Origin: a bacterium
GTDB lineage: Bacteria; Patescibacteriota; Saccharimonadia; Saccharimonadales; Saccharimonadaceae
DNA: 51,833 nucleotides
Assembly: GCA_030530485.1 (NCBI GenBank)
Contig: JAUMUX010000006.1
Span: forward strand, 1 to 51,833
Direction: 5' to 3'
Shown here: in pieces, positions 6,903-48,935 of the stretch
Layout: each line of letters begins with the position of its first letter
Numbering within the stretch: position 1 is the first letter of the stretch
Position numbers and translations under genes: made by a program
The notes under the pieces: generated by a model
Databases searched by the model: none
Told to the model about the DNA's origin: nothing
Seen by the model: the letters and a program-made list of their open reading frames with translations, nothing else

Positions 6903-7100
6903 TTTTCGATTACGAATAATCCTTCTCCCGCAGACGCATTACTGCGACGCACTACCTTATTCCTGTCCTTTCTTGCGAAAACGAGCACGGTGTCGACCTT
7001 TATTAGTTAATATTAGTGAAATCGTGCGCCCTTACGACAGTTTCTGGTAGGTTCGTCAGTCCAAAATCTCTCCACAAAAATGAAATTTTAGCTGATTCAC
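6903..7100 (-). promoter_or_regulatory. ~200-nt structured 5' leader of the LysM-CHAP gene
   Basis: Transcription predicted from about 7100 leaves a ~198-nt untranslated leader, very long for this genome. Nested pairings are possible: plus-strand 7046-7050 with 6952-6956, 7036-7040 with 6963-6967, and 7023-7027 with 6985-6989 (5 bp each). The 5' end (7096-7102) can also pair with 7014-7020 (7 bp), which would cross the others, so alternative folds are possible. I do not recognise a known riboswitch class. Confidence 0.45.
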
Positions 7101-19388: not shown

Positions 19389-19784
19389 ATGATAAACATT
19401 TTTTTACAGCTAATCCTTTCGCTGATGCGATTCTTCGCGTGGATTCCAGGTGTTGATTCGCAAATTACGATTTACTCCATCGTTGCGGTGGCGACTGTTG
19501 CCGTGATTGGTTTAATCGAAAGGTTCTTCCCGAACTTTGTTGGGCGAATCATCAATATTGGCTGGCTTTATTTCCTACTTTTGCTCGCGGGAGTTGCACT
19601 CAACTGCACAACCGACTGGCGAATGTGGAGCATTGGAGCGTTTTTGATTCTGATGGCAATCTGGCGGGCAGGAATGCTCGATGGTCGCCGAGGAATAGAA
19701 GCCAAAAAATCGAAATGGCTTCGAAAGCTCAAAAAAAGAATTCGAGATTGGCTCGATGAAGAAGTCGAAGAGCCAAAAAAGTAA
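19389..19784 (+). CDS. Small membrane protein of unknown function
   Basis: 131 residues with about three hydrophobic helices. They are followed by a basic stretch (KKSKWLRKLKKRIRDW) and an acidic tail (DEEVEEPKK). No family recognised. The start at 19389 is set by GGAGG (19376-19380) at ideal distance. The leader carries TTCGAAA and TTTCGAA, which can form a stem. The bases overlapping and following the stop codon (AACCTCC, 19783-19789) are complementary to the Shine-Dalgarno region GGAGGTT (19376-19382). Confidence 0.75.
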   Translation: MINIFLQLILSLMRFFAWIPGVDSQITIYSIVAVATVAVIGLIERFFPNFVGRIINIGWLYFLLLLAGVALNCTTDWRMWSIGAFLILMAIWRAGMLDGRRGIEAKKSKWLRKLKKRIRDWLDEEVEEPKK

Positions 19785-19867: not shown

Positions 19868-19896
19868 TTGACTTTTTAAATAAATTATGCTATAAT
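19868..19896 (+). promoter_or_regulatory. Promoter of surface protein gene 20103
   Basis: TTGACT (19868-19873), 17-bp spacer, TATAAT (19891-19896) with extended TG. Predicted start is about 19903. Confidence 0.88.
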
Positions 19897-19902
19897 CAAG
19901 CC

Positions 19903-20102
19903 AGTTAGCATTATAGGTGCTGAGGGAGCTTAAAAATCAGGCTAATAAAAAGTATTAAGCTTTTACCGTGGCAGTTCTCCAATTTCCCTATTTGCGCGCC
20001 TTGTGGGAAGTTGGCGAGCTGTCGCGGTAAACGCGACGTTCCTCTTGAAATTTTTTGGCCAAAATATTTCAAAAAAATAGAAATGAAAGGGGTGTGGCAA
20101 AA
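19903..20102 (+). promoter_or_regulatory. 200-nt highly structured 5' leader with alternative hairpins
   Basis: ACCGTGGCAG (19965-19974) pairs over 10 bp, with G-U pairs, to CTGTCGCGGT (20019-20028). Inside it CCAATTTCCC (19979-19988) pairs over 10 bp with GGGAAGTTGG (20005-20014). Upstream, AGCTTAA (19927-19933) pairs with TTAAGCT (19955-19961). The loop sequence GCTAA (19941-19945) can pair with TTAGC (19905-19909), forming a pseudoknot. GTCGCG (20021-20026) can alternatively form a perfect 6-bp hairpin with CGCGAC (20032-20037), which would break the large stem. A Shine-Dalgarno AAAGGGG follows. The layout resembles a riboswitch but matches no class I know. The ~318 bases between the flanking genes hold only this leader, its promoter and the upstream terminator. 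Confidence 0.7.
19933..19956 (+). repeat. Left arm of a 24-bp inverted repeat flanking gene 20103
   Basis: Matches the reverse complement of 21281-21304 at 22 of 24 positions, including 15 in a row (AAAATCAGGCTAATA). It lies inside the leader, downstream of the promoter. Confidence 0.85.
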
Positions 20103-21197
20103 ATGACTAGAAGAAAGAGGATTATACTTGGGATAGGATTGATAGTAGTACTTACTGCTATCGTGAGTTTAATGTTTTCGCTTGGGGGCGGGAATGCCAC
20201 CAAAACGGAGGCGAAGGCAAAAGGAGCAGGAACGGAATCAACGACCGTAGCTAATACATCCAAAAAAGATGAGAGCTACAAAGAGTTTGAGGTAATTCCT
20301 TACGGAGAAAATCCGCAAGGAAAAGTTATACCGAATAATTCAGACAGCGATTCGTTGTCGGGCTCAGTATCCGAGAAGGTAAAAACCCTTCTTTCTAATG
20401 CGGCACACAAGCCACAAGCATTAGAGAATTACTCCCGTCAGTTGGGTTTAAAAATCCCAAATGATATGAAGTGGAAGCAAGAAGTTGAAGGTAAGGAGTA
20501 TTTGAGTAAAGAAGCTCAAGATCTTTATTGGAAACTAGAGGCGATTTTGCTCGGCGAAGCAAAAACTGAGCACGTCGATAATATCGGCGTGACTGGATAT
20601 GCCTCAGGCGTTCAGAATGGCGAACTTATCCAAGGTGAAAAGTTCGATTATTCCAACTGGAGTGGCGTGAAGATTACCTATAAAGGCTACACCTTTTACA
20701 CGCTTGATTACTGTGGCAATACAGTAACACCATCTCCGATTCCGGGCGTCAAGAAAATTCCTAAGGTTATTACACCTCCGGAACAGCCGAGTAAAAAAAC
20801 ACCACCACCAAAGGAACAGCTCGAGCCGAAAAAGGCTGAGCAAGACCCTGCACAACAAGGAAACGCTCCTATTGGCGGTGGCAGAAATGCTACTTCAACA
20901 GTGGAAGAACCAGCAGACAACACTGCACCGTCCTTCCCAAATACCTACCAAGCACCTGCACCACAAAATGGTGGCGGTGCGCAAAATGGTGGAACCAGCG
21001 GGCTGAACGACGCGCCGAGTGGCAGCTTTAGCGATGCAAACGGTCAAACGACTGTTAATCCAAATGGCTCCGTGCAAACGCCTAACGGCAACTACAGACC
21101 ATTGGTTGGAGTTACGCCACCGCCAGTTCAAAACCCAGATACTAATTCTGGAGTAAACAATGGTGCGGTAGACGCCAACACTATCCCAGTCGACTAA
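20103..21197 (+). CDS. Membrane-anchored or secreted surface protein, unknown function
   Basis: 364 residues. An N-terminal basic segment and one membrane helix (about 5-26) are followed by an exterior region. This has a compact part (about residues 85-215, with VKITYKGYTFYTLDYCG) and a C-terminal half rich in Pro, Gly, Asn and Gln. No sorting motif is visible at the C-terminus. I chose the ATG at 20103 because of AAAGGGG upstream; the open frame extends to 20055. Unlike its neighbours it contains no TTCGAA, which suggests a different history or rapid turnover. An almost perfect 24-bp inverted repeat encloses its leader end and coding region. Confidence 0.75.
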   Translation: MTRRKRIILGIGLIVVLTAIVSLMFSLGGGNATKTEAKAKGAGTESTTVANTSKKDESYKEFEVIPYGENPQGKVIPNNSDSDSLSGSVSEKVKTLLSNAAHKPQALENYSRQLGLKIPNDMKWKQEVEGKEYLSKEAQDLYWKLEAILLGEAKTEHVDNIGVTGYASGVQNGELIQGEKFDYSNWSGVKITYKGYTFYTLDYCGNTVTPSPIPGVKKIPKVITPPEQPSKKTPPPKEQLEPKKAEQDPAQQGNAPIGGGRNATSTVEEPADNTAPSFPNTYQAPAPQNGGGAQNGGTSGLNDAPSGSFSDANGQTTVNPNGSVQTPNGNYRPLVGVTPPPVQNPDTNSGVNNGAVDANTIPVD

Positions 21198-21242
21198 TGC
21201 TAATTTCGAAATTCGAATTCGAGTTTCGAAAGCACTTTTTTC

Positions 21243-21272
21243 GCCTGGCAGCTTCTCTGCTGCTGGGCTTTT
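21243..21272 (+). terminator. Terminator of gene 20103
   Basis: 10-bp stem (GCCTGGCAGC/GCTGCTGGGC with two G-U pairs), 6-nt loop, TTTT. Confidence 0.85.
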
Positions 21273-21280
21273 CCTAGTTT

Positions 21281-21304
21281 AATGCTTTCTATTAGCCTGA
21301 TTTT
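21281..21304 (-). repeat. Right arm of the 24-bp inverted repeat
   Basis: Reverse complement of 19933-19956 with two mismatches. It lies after the terminator and before the next promoter. It overlaps a small hairpin AGCCTG (21294-21299)/CAGGCT (21306-21311). Confidence 0.85.
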
Positions 21305-21353
21305 ACAGGCTTTAACAATTCGGCTAGCAAAAAAACAGACATTATCTTTAATA

Positions 21354-21382
21354 TTGACAAAAAATCTATTTTATTATATAAT
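21354..21382 (+). promoter_or_regulatory. Promoter of the LPKTG surface protein gene
   Basis: TTGACA (21354-21359), 17-bp spacer, TATAAT (21377-21382): full consensus. The short leader has no obvious structure. Confidence 0.9.
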
Positions 21383-21421: not shown

Positions 21422-23659
21422 ATGAGAGACTTTTTGAAAAAAGTAGCTAGCTTTGCAAAAAGCCACCCAGTATTCTTGGGCGTAACTTTGGTTGCGCTTG
21501 TCGCTGGTGCGCGAGTTCTCGCTTGGGGTCCAGGTCGAGCAACTTTTACAATGGCTAAGCCAGCTGACTACGTAACCTTCAACTCAATCACTGATAATCC
21601 AAATATCGGCGATGAACGAGACTTCGTGGGAATCCGCGAAAAAGGCACGCAAAATGCGTGGTCAAACAAAGTGCAAATTCAGGATGGTAAAGAATATTAC
21701 ATCCGAATGTATGTTCACAACAATGCCGCTGCCAACCTCAACTTGGTAGCCGAAAACGTAACGGCAAAATTGAATGTGCCAAACAAAACAGATACAAGCA
21801 TTACGGTTGACGGCCAAATTTCGGCTTCAAACGCTAACCCAGCTCAAGTTTGGGACAACGCAACTTTTACAAGCGACAAAAAATTCAACCTTACTTATGT
21901 AAGTGGTTCAGCGCTTTATGAAAATAACAGCGTTGGTGCGCGTGGTGGCGTAAAATTAAGCGATAATTTGCTTACCAACACTGGCGCATTGCTTGGTTAT
22001 GACAAGCTTGACGGTAAAATCCCTGGCTGCAACCAATACGCAGGTTATGTAACCGTTTTGGTGAAAGCTAAAACTGTCGAAGAATCGAATATTAGCATTT
22101 CGAAAACCGTTCGAAACAAAACTAACGGCGACAAAACTTGGAACGAAGTTGTAGATGCTAAACCTGGCGACACTGTTCAGTTCCAAATTGATGCCAAAAA
22201 CACTGGCAATAGTCAAATCAATAACTTGGTTATCCGCGACATTTTGCCAAAAGGTTTGAAATTCGTGCCTGGAAGCGCTAAACTCTACAACGCCAATAAC
22301 GGCTTTAAGGGTTCTTCAATCGATGACAGCGTAATCGCCAAAACTGAAGCAGACAAAGGCGCAAACGTTGGCGCATATTCAGCTGGCAGCAACGCGGTGG
22401 TTCGATTCGACGCAACTGTAGTCGAAAACGACCAATTGCCTAAATGTGGCGAAAACCTTCTAACCAACCTCGCTCAAGCCAGCGACCAAAGAATCGCAAA
22501 AAATGACACAGCGGGCGTTCGAGTTAAAAAAGAATGTAAAACGGTTGCTTACAAATGTGATGCTTTGAGCGTTAAATTAATCAGCAAAAAAGAAATCTCA
22601 AACGGTAGCCACAAAGGTGCAGAATTTACTTACGAATTCGACACCGCTTACACTGCCCAAAACACCACTTTCAAAGGTGTAAAATATGTAGTGAAAAATT
22701 CGAAGGGCGAAGTTGTAGCTGAAAAGACCGTAAATAACGGCACTAAGCTTACCTTCACCGCTAGCCTTTACGCGAGCGACACCTTCAACGTAACCGCTAC
22801 CGTGCTTACCGCTGATGGCGAAAATACCAACGCAAACTGTGCTAAATCATTTGAACTTAACGTTCCACAGACTAAAGCGCTTAAATGTGAATCAATCGTA
22901 ATTTCGCGAATTTCACGCACTAAATTCGAAATTTCAACCAACATCACTAAGGTTAATGTTTCGAACGTAAACGTAAATTACGTGATTAAAAATTCGAAAG
23001 GCGAAACTGTTCGAACTTTCGAAAACGACGGTTCGAAAACTCAAATCGAAATCACCCAATCGGGCGATTACACAATCACCGCAACTGTTAAGGGTGACGG
23101 CGTGAATAGTTCCGACTGTTCAAAACAATTCACCGTGCCAAAAGAAAACACACCTTCAATTGTTATCGAAAAGACAGTTAACGGCGTGAAAGATTTGAAA
23201 GTTGAAGCCAACACTGATTTCCCTTATGAAATCACTGTACGCAACAACGGTAGCGTTGATTTGAAAGAGGTAAAAGTTACCGACAAAGCTCCTGCGAATG
23301 TTAAATTTATCAGCAGCGACAAGGGCGAAATTAAAGATAATGTATTGACTTACACTATCCCAAGCCTCAAAGTTGGTGAAAGCCAAACGATTAAAATCAC
23401 CGCTCAAGCAACTGCTACAAATATGAAAGCAAAAAACGTTGCTTGTGTAGATACCCCAACGATTCCTGGCGACAACGACGGTTGTGATAGCGCGAATATC
23501 GAAGTGCCACCAAAGAGCACTCCAACTCCGCCACCAACCACACCAGAAGTTCCTGCCGAATTGCCAAAAACTGGTTTCGACAGCTTCGGTGCAATGATTG
23601 CGCTAGGCTCATTGGCTTCAGCAGGCGCAGCCTACATTGCTAGCCGACGAATGATTTAA
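21422..23659 (+). CDS. LPXTG-type surface protein with DUF11-like repeats
   Basis: 745-residue predicted cell-surface protein. After an N-terminal signal/anchor (about 14-35) there is an exterior domain. Next comes an Ig-like DUF11 segment (ISISKTVRNK through ILPKGLKFVPGSAKLY). Two related Ig-like modules with paired cysteines follow (KCDALSVKLISKKE and KCESIVISRISRTK). A second DUF11 segment precedes the end (IVIEKTVNGVKD through KAPANVKFISS). After a Pro/Thr linker the C-terminus has LPKTG, a hydrophobic stretch and a short basic tail (SRRMI), a classical sortase signal. No sortase gene is in this window. The start ATG has a purine-rich GAGAGGA upstream. Confidence 0.88.
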   Translation: MRDFLKKVASFAKSHPVFLGVTLVALVAGARVLAWGPGRATFTMAKPADYVTFNSITDNPNIGDERDFVGIREKGTQNAWSNKVQIQDGKEYYIRMYVHNNAAANLNLVAENVTAKLNVPNKTDTSITVDGQISASNANPAQVWDNATFTSDKKFNLTYVSGSALYENNSVGARGGVKLSDNLLTNTGALLGYDKLDGKIPGCNQYAGYVTVLVKAKTVEESNISISKTVRNKTNGDKTWNEVVDAKPGDTVQFQIDAKNTGNSQINNLVIRDILPKGLKFVPGSAKLYNANNGFKGSSIDDSVIAKTEADKGANVGAYSAGSNAVVRFDATVVENDQLPKCGENLLTNLAQASDQRIAKNDTAGVRVKKECKTVAYKCDALSVKLISKKEISNGSHKGAEFTYEFDTAYTAQNTTFKGVKYVVKNSKGEVVAEKTVNNGTKLTFTASLYASDTFNVTATVLTADGENTNANCAKSFELNVPQTKALKCESIVISRISRTKFEISTNITKVNVSNVNVNYVIKNSKGETVRTFENDGSKTQIEITQSGDYTITATVKGDGVNSSDCSKQFTVPKENTPSIVIEKTVNGVKDLKVEANTDFPYEITVRNNGSVDLKEVKVTDKAPANVKFISSDKGEIKDNVLTYTIPSLKVGESQTIKITAQATATNMKAKNVACVDTPTIPGDNDGCDSANIEVPPKSTPTPPPTTPEVPAELPKTGFDSFGAMIALGSLASAGAAYIASRRMI

Positions 23660-47327: not shown

Positions 47328-48935
47328 ATGACCAAAAATTCATTTAAAATATCGTTGCTATGTGGAGCAGTTCTCACTGCTTCATTGCTTGTATCAGGCG
47401 TTTCCGCCAACGAAGTAAAAGAGCCTACTTCACCAGTCGAAACCTCAATTTCGACGGCACCAATTACGCCACCTGAATACACCGAACCTGCAACTTCAAT
47501 TAGCACCGCGCCAACCGAAACTCCTGCAGAAACTTCAATTAGCACAGCGCCAACTGAGATGCCTGCGGAGTCTACAGATTCCGAGGACGAAACTCCTCGG
47601 ATGAGCGTGCCAGAAGCTTCGGAGCCAACTCAAGGGTCAGCAACAATTCCTGGCTTAAGCGATACAGCAGCTCAAGACAGCGAACCTGCTCAACCTGCAG
47701 CCGAATCTGCGGTTCAAAATCTGGAAATTACCGACTTAAAAACCAGCATCGAAGGCGACGTTCAAACTTATCAAAGAGTAAGCACAGAAATCACCTTTAA
47801 AGTGCCAGATGGCACCAAGGCTGGCGATACTTCTGTAATTCAGATGGGCGATGATTTCGAATTCGTTCGAAAAGCGCCATTTACCCTGAAAAATGAAGAG
47901 GGTAAGCCTCTCGCTGAGGCTACCTTCGAAGGCAAGAACATCAGATTGACTTATTTAGAGTCAATCAATGGGCTTACCAACGTTCACGGCTACCTGGAAT
48001 TCGAAGTTCAGGTAGACTACGCGAACAAGAGTTTGGGAGACAAAGTAACTTTACAGTTCTTTGTCAACAACAAATTCTTGGCCGGTAAAGTCTTTGACTA
48101 CACTGGAATAGGAAAACAGCGGAATGTTGAATTCCGCAAGTCAAGTTGGCAAGATAGGCACGGAGATGTTGTAACGTCTATCACTATCGGTCAGAAACAA
48201 TTCCAGAGAACGACGCCAGCAGGAAAAACTATGATAATGTCGATTAGAGACATCGTCAATCCTGAAAGCGTTGATAACATTGATTTCGATAGCTCAACTA
48301 TTGAAGTTAAGGTCGGCACTTGGCGTTTTGATGAACGTAAAGGCTGGATTCTGGATAATGCTCGGGTGCTCAACCCAGGTTATGAATACAGCTACGCTCT
48401 TTCGAGTAACGACCAGGAAGACTGGTTCGACCTCGAATTAGCAAAACTGGATGAAAACCACCAGAAAGTCAGCTCAGTCGAGCCGCACGAAGGCGTGCTC
48501 ATAAGCTACAAGAGTAAGTTCGTCAAGCAAGTGGAACCTGGGGAAACGATCAACAACTCCGCCACGCTCAGCCTTGATGGTACAGATTATAAATCTTGGC
48601 AATCTTCAGCTAAGATTTATAGCCAAAGTGGTTGGATTAAAGGCGATACCCCAACCCCACCGCAGCCAAAACCAGAACCAGAAGAGCCACAGCCGGAACC
48701 TAAGCCAAATCCAGGCGAAGGTGAAAAACCGAAGGAGGGCGAAAAACCTAAGCAAGATAAACCAAAGGAAGAGCCCAAGGCTGAGCCTAATTCAAACAAG
48801 GCCGAAAAACCTGCTTCTACGGGCAAGAAAGAAGCTAAAGCCGCAGCCAACACAGCCGCTGGCGGAAGCTTGATTTCAATATTCCTGTTAGGAATCGCAG
48901 GTCTGTTTTCTGGATTCGTTTCCAGAAAAAAATAA
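47328..48935 (+). CDS. Adhesin-like surface protein with an AANTAAG-type C-terminal signal
   Basis: 535 residues. Signal peptide (about 1-27, ending VSANE). A low-complexity stretch has three copies of TSISTAP, followed by a Glu/Ala/Pro region. Residues about 140-435 look like paired Ig-like adhesion modules of Gram-positive surface proteins (TEITFKVPDGTKAGDTSVIQ, DYTGIGKQRNVEFRK). Then comes a Pro/Lys/Glu wall-spanning linker and GKKEAKAAANTAAGG, a hydrophobic segment and SRKK. The block GKKEAxxAANTAAG is shared with gene 42469. GGAGG is 9 nt before the ATG. The host or ligand it binds is unknown. Confidence 0.82.
   Translation: MTKNSFKISLLCGAVLTASLLVSGVSANEVKEPTSPVETSISTAPITPPEYTEPATSISTAPTETPAETSISTAPTEMPAESTDSEDETPRMSVPEASEPTQGSATIPGLSDTAAQDSEPAQPAAESAVQNLEITDLKTSIEGDVQTYQRVSTEITFKVPDGTKAGDTSVIQMGDDFEFVRKAPFTLKNEEGKPLAEATFEGKNIRLTYLESINGLTNVHGYLEFEVQVDYANKSLGDKVTLQFFVNNKFLAGKVFDYTGIGKQRNVEFRKSSWQDRHGDVVTSITIGQKQFQRTTPAGKTMIMSIRDIVNPESVDNIDFDSSTIEVKVGTWRFDERKGWILDNARVLNPGYEYSYALSSNDQEDWFDLELAKLDENHQKVSSVEPHEGVLISYKSKFVKQVEPGETINNSATLSLDGTDYKSWQSSAKIYSQSGWIKGDTPTPPQPKPEPEEPQPEPKPNPGEGEKPKEGEKPKQDKPKEEPKAEPNSNKAEKPASTGKKEAKAAANTAAGGSLISIFLLGIAGLFSGFVSRKK

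Follow-up and report, generated by a model that had tools for sequence, protein, structure and literature searches.

A protein-coding gene in a bacterium of the Saccharimonadaceae is flanked by two complementary arms, which we interpret with moderate confidence as pairing with each other in the mRNA: the 5′ leader and 3′ trailer of one message would be linked by a long helix that acts as an end clamp, protecting the message and/or setting its processing. The gene lies in the window (the whole stretch of DNA analysed, 51,833 nt, contig JAUMUX010000006.1 of GenBank assembly GCA_030530485.1). Judged from pairing and covariation, a sense-strand RNA helix is predicted to join leader and trailer.

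A first-pass annotation had reported a 24-nt inverted repeat around the gene, which is confirmed: positions 19933-19956 agree with the reverse complement of 21281-21304 at 22 of 24 positions, the first 15 consecutively. Ungapped extension gives arms of 29 nt with 26 matching (left, 19933..19961; right, 21276..21304; both + strand), and two of the three mismatches are G.U on the + strand. The arms, delimited by inverted-repeat search and extension, are also found by full-length folding and congener covariation. The best leader/trailer complementarity was scored for 588 ORFs of the 656-kb genome (ORF calls were mechanical throughout); this gene scores 24, the runner-up 16 and most others 8-12, and its arm pair is unique among these ORFs.

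The enclosed gene (20103..21197, + strand), characterised by translation, Pfam search and folding of its coding region, encodes 364 aa with one N-terminal transmembrane segment, a Pro-rich tail and no Pfam match. It stands between a gene for a small membrane protein and one for a DUF11 surface protein with an LPKTG-like end (21422..23659, + strand), which has its own promoter (21354-21382) and serves as the synteny marker of this locus across the family. A promoter motif, TTGACT-17-TATAAT, occupies 19868..19896 (+ strand), outside the left arm as first annotated, and congeners G003 and G001 have the same promoter ahead of the leader. The leader starts with a hairpin, P1 (TTAGCA/TGCTGA; 19905..19923, + strand), that pairs in 4/4 congeners with 3 of its 6 pairs changed on both sides. 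Directly 3′ of the left arm is a long predicted hairpin (19963..20030, + strand); the congeners have one in this position too, of another sequence. A conserved TTTAACAATTC (21311..21321, + strand) follows closely on the right arm; its first base differs in G003, and it is present at many family loci. No Rfam family matches the locus at the gathering score, and a relaxed E-value gave only chance-level matches; a search of viral contigs found no relative.

The right arm had been placed past the terminator. A terminator-like hairpin with the tail TTTTCC does lie just 5′ of that arm (21243..21268, + strand), but its role as a terminator is doubtful, as relatives have a hairpin at the same place. 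Because this place is kept, and because terminators follow the right arm in the array units described below, the right arm is probably transcribed at the window locus too. A terminator 3′ of the right arm was looked for there and none was found; the loci upstream of DUF11 genes in other genomes mostly have none either.

The genus of the window (g1) comprises five genomes: G000, which holds the window, and G001 to G004. When the repeat pair was sought at the homologous loci of the four relatives, it was found in three (G001, G003 and G004), where gene order is kept and the arms, at the same places, form the top inverted repeat, with sequences that differ yet remain complementary. G002 has a different gene at the locus, with a structured coding sequence (z -7) and only an 11-bp end pair, within chance. 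In an arm alignment of four congeners with a hand-set spacer, 92.9% of the cells pair and 17/28 arm pairs show compensatory changes on both sides. None of 500 shuffles matched these pairing and compensation values, and sliding the arm partners by 1-3 columns dropped pairing to 26-48%. RNAfold applied to the full-length mRNAs (1.4-1.7 kb) paired the arms in 4/4 orthologues, with pairing probabilities close to 1 along most of the helix, which closes a loop containing the coding region. RNA pairing, a secondary suggestion of the first-pass annotation, is supported by these folds. The complementary leader and trailer are conserved as a pair, the pattern by which 5′-3′ UTR pairing of the hbs and icaR type is recognised.

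Arms were traced through the family by synteny with the DUF11 gene, a neighbour present in 148/198 family genomes; the stretch upstream of it was read in 20. In most of these, one or two genes upstream of the DUF11 gene lie between arms of a family form, AACAARTCAGATYATTACA-GTGCATGTC with its complement, and most family units have 2 nt bulged out in the right arm. At locus L115 the arms enclose short ORFs only, and at L121, L123 and L133 no arms were recognisable. Rfam matched nothing at these loci except tRNAs. A sequence model of leader plus left arm matched 94/245 family genomes in 23/61 genera (E <= 5e-4) and, among 380 genomes of the phylum, matched only within the same family. It misses the window genus, and a leader model built from the four congeners (R1) gave nothing convincing outside that genus; both results we ascribe to divergence of the genus arms. 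Within the family the arm sequences are strongly conserved, which suggests that more than pairing is maintained, such as recognition by a protein or nuclease, or DNA mobility.

Genus g60 has the element in multiple copies: 13 matches were counted in G203 and another 13 in G227. G227 (L135 1500-9060) carries tandem units of the form left arm, small ORF, right arm, with an rRNA-methyltransferase-like gene on one side and hisS on the other. The array genes encode ~70-190 aa each, with no assigned function; one is a DUF5652 protein, which was also the only family assignment when the enclosed proteins were compared with Pfam and PHROG. Arm variants are common to both arms of one unit (e.g. ATTTCG in unit L135:4317). 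Over columns 4-19 of 37 units we counted 550 Watson-Crick pairs, 34 G.U, 6 A.C and 2 other; the excess of G.U over A.C on the sense strand (p 4e-6, approximate since the units are related) shows that it is the sense strand that pairs. Arms pair at 98.6% within units and at 94.3% when swapped between units (maximum 95.8% in 2,000 swaps), and among abutting units an arm pairs better within its own unit than with the next in 6/7.

All six units that start 12-20 nt after a preceding right arm lack a promoter-like match, while 30 of the 31 other units have one. Among the array units eligible in the table of promoters and terminators (n=12), 7 have a terminator 3′ of the right arm, against 50/600 random segments. 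From the promoter-less abutting units and these terminators we infer that both arms lie inside the transcript of array units. Within 1.5 kb of hisS, just a few of the 19 congeners scanned have units, which indicates that units come and go.

The coding region at the DUF11-upstream locus is itself strongly folded. Against shuffles that keep protein and codon usage, with dinucleotides across codon boundaries left free to vary, the enclosed gene has a fold z of -6.2 in G000, -8.9 in G003, -10.3 in G001 and -15.5 in G004, while 30 other window genes are centred near -1.5. It ranks 4th of 588 ORFs in G000, 1st of 45 in a G003 sample (z -11, next -4.6) and 1st of 48 in a G004 sample (z -23, next -3). 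Across the family, the gene before DUF11 reaches a z of roughly -6 or below in most of the 20 genomes. Within the coding hairpins, sense-strand bias is suggestive only (GU 15 vs 7.1 expected, AC 12 vs 10.8, p 0.11). The small array genes are only mildly structured (z +1.5 to -5), so arms and coding-region folding are separable features. Paralogous DUF11 loci in the genus have no arms and mostly ordinary folding.

Several other genes stood out in the same scan. Neighbouring surface genes are moderately structured as well; the small membrane-protein gene upstream of the enclosed gene (19389-19784) has a z of -4.1, with -4.6 in G003 and -7.8 in G004. An LPXTG-like adhesin gene at 47328-48935 (z -6.8) ranks 2nd of 588 genome-wide and is without end-pairing arms. 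The top-structured ORF of the genome, G000:C7:100781-101302 (- strand, z -8.9), could encode a short protein or specify a structured RNA. At L121 2812-4212 (G129), the gene upstream of DUF11 has a z of -11.8 although no arms are recognisable. The enclosed gene had also been noted to lack TTCGAA, and it does (0 in 1,095 nt, against 4.1 per kb genome-wide), but the absence means little, as the word is also missing from 9 of 122 genes of comparable length. TTCGAA occurs 2,667 times in G000, ~13x the base-composition expectation, while a 5-mer Markov model expects 2,331; its density is 1.4 per kb in the G003 sample and 1.0 in that of G004.

We propose the following mechanism. Transcription would begin just 5′ of the left arm and run through the right arm. 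The mRNA ends would then pair over ~25-33 bp (a small bulge is conserved where the arms have the family-wide form), giving a panhandle whose loop holds the coding region, which at the DUF11-upstream locus is itself a series of hairpins. The arms would act as a standard bracket set around individual genes, singly or as beads in co-transcribed arrays. We infer that the clamped ends protect the message, and/or that the bracket sets the cutting points at which a polycistronic transcript yields stable single-gene messages. More tentatively, and with slightly more doubt than belief, we generalise that any gene placed between the arms gives a self-clasped message and that gene gain and loss proceeds by bracketed cassettes, sometimes lined up as co-transcribed beads, in a gene-cassette system defined at the RNA level and not by DNA recombination sites.

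The main rival of an end clamp is a processing stem, in which the helix is chiefly a substrate for RNase III or another double-strand-specific RNase and releases single-gene messages, as the flanking stems of 16S and 23S rRNA do. It takes this place because the genome encodes RNase III, and a helix that spans 25+ bp and has a conserved bulge, together with array units that lie 12-20 nt apart without promoters, would suit it. Single units with their own promoter nevertheless keep their arms where nothing needs to be cut out, and we consider processing as the main role unlikely, though it carries appreciable weight.

An end clamp is also to be weighed against a translational switch of the icaR type, in which the 3′ trailer, acting on the leader, blocks the ribosome-binding site or makes it accessible; we give this a small chance. 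The leader can hide the Shine-Dalgarno (SD) sequence locally in several genomes, and G003 (L025 962-976 / 2226-2240) has a second leader/post-stop complementarity, in which its SD region GGAGGATTGAAAC can pair over 13 nt with the bases that directly follow the stop codon. Yet the arms lie well upstream of the SD, and pairing of the G003 type is clear only there: a 10-nt leader/post-stop match in G001 (L026 ~990-1000 / 2412-2425) falls further upstream in the leader, and none was found in G000 or G004.

We think it improbable to a still higher degree that the units are mobile DNA cassettes, with the arms serving as terminal inverted repeats that are recognised at the DNA level, possibly in folded single strands, and with RNA pairing a by-product. 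The tandem arrays, the multiple copies in g60 and the patchy occupancy of the hisS site are what such cassettes would give. Against them stand the sense-strand G.U bias, the right-arm bulge, the covariation within units, the placement of promoters and terminators around the arms and the hairpin-rich coding sequences, and the DUF11-upstream unit holds its position across many genera. DNA mobility of the bracketed units in addition to RNA pairing is possible.

The inversion switch that the first-pass annotation had put forward, with site-specific recombination flipping the gene relative to its promoter, accounts for a promoter outside and a gene inside inverted arms but is almost certainly wrong: the arms, considered as identical sites for a site-specific recombinase, were rejected because they differ between species with compensatory changes, their differences are biased to G.U on one strand, the right arm is bulged, the gene has the same left-to-right orientation in all units examined, and the recombinase search found no serine recombinase in the genome and two tyrosine recombinases, both on other contigs, which may act on the arms in trans.

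The Saccharibacteria of this family are tiny and parasitic, and Patescibacteria, in which surface proteins mediate life on host cells, have barely been studied. The end pairing of bacterial mRNAs known to us comes from a few single genes and is poorly conserved; here it shows covariation in dozens of units around many unrelated genes and, at one locus, is combined with hairpin-shaped coding sequences. This makes it testable whether a bacterium sets message lifetime, or cuts polycistronic RNA, by clasping message ends, and gives a handle on gene regulation in the Patescibacteria. As a portable part, the arms may also prove useful for making messages more stable. Neither Rfam nor a limited literature search gave a match, so that, provisionally, a shared gene bracket of this kind appears to be undescribed.

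Among known systems, integron gene cassettes resemble the units in being arrays of small, mostly unknown genes that vary between genomes; their attC site, however, is one imperfect palindrome per cassette, whereas here half-arms are split by the gene and the units often have promoters. The stems that flank 16S and 23S rRNA in their precursors are, like the arms, long-range leader-trailer stems of covarying sequence around a structured RNA; they are RNase III substrates, as the arms are candidates to be, but enclose rRNA where the arms enclose protein-coding genes. The lysM-TM7 RNA (RF03005) shares with the arms a place in the leader of Saccharibacteria surface or cell-wall genes, and one copy lies in the window at 6925-7052 (- strand), ahead of a LysM-CHAP gene; the arm locus, in contrast, matches no Rfam family at the gathering score. 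In Staphylococcus aureus icaR, the 3′UTR likewise pairs with the 5′UTR, so that translation is repressed and an RNase III substrate is formed and cleaved (PMC3868564). There the 3′UTR hits the SD with a UCCCC motif, whereas the arms here lie upstream of the SD, and the outcome in icaR is the opposite of the protection described for hbs. On the account given in PMC7821165, the Bacillus subtilis hbs mRNA, which a 14-nt pairing of 5′ and 3′ UTRs protects from RNase Y (Braun 2017), is the closest precedent for a clamp of mRNA ends, with leader-trailer pairing within one mRNA as here. By the same account the hbs pairing belongs to one gene and is not conserved among close relatives, whereas the arms described here span 25+ bp, recur family-wide around many unrelated genes and also occur in arrays.
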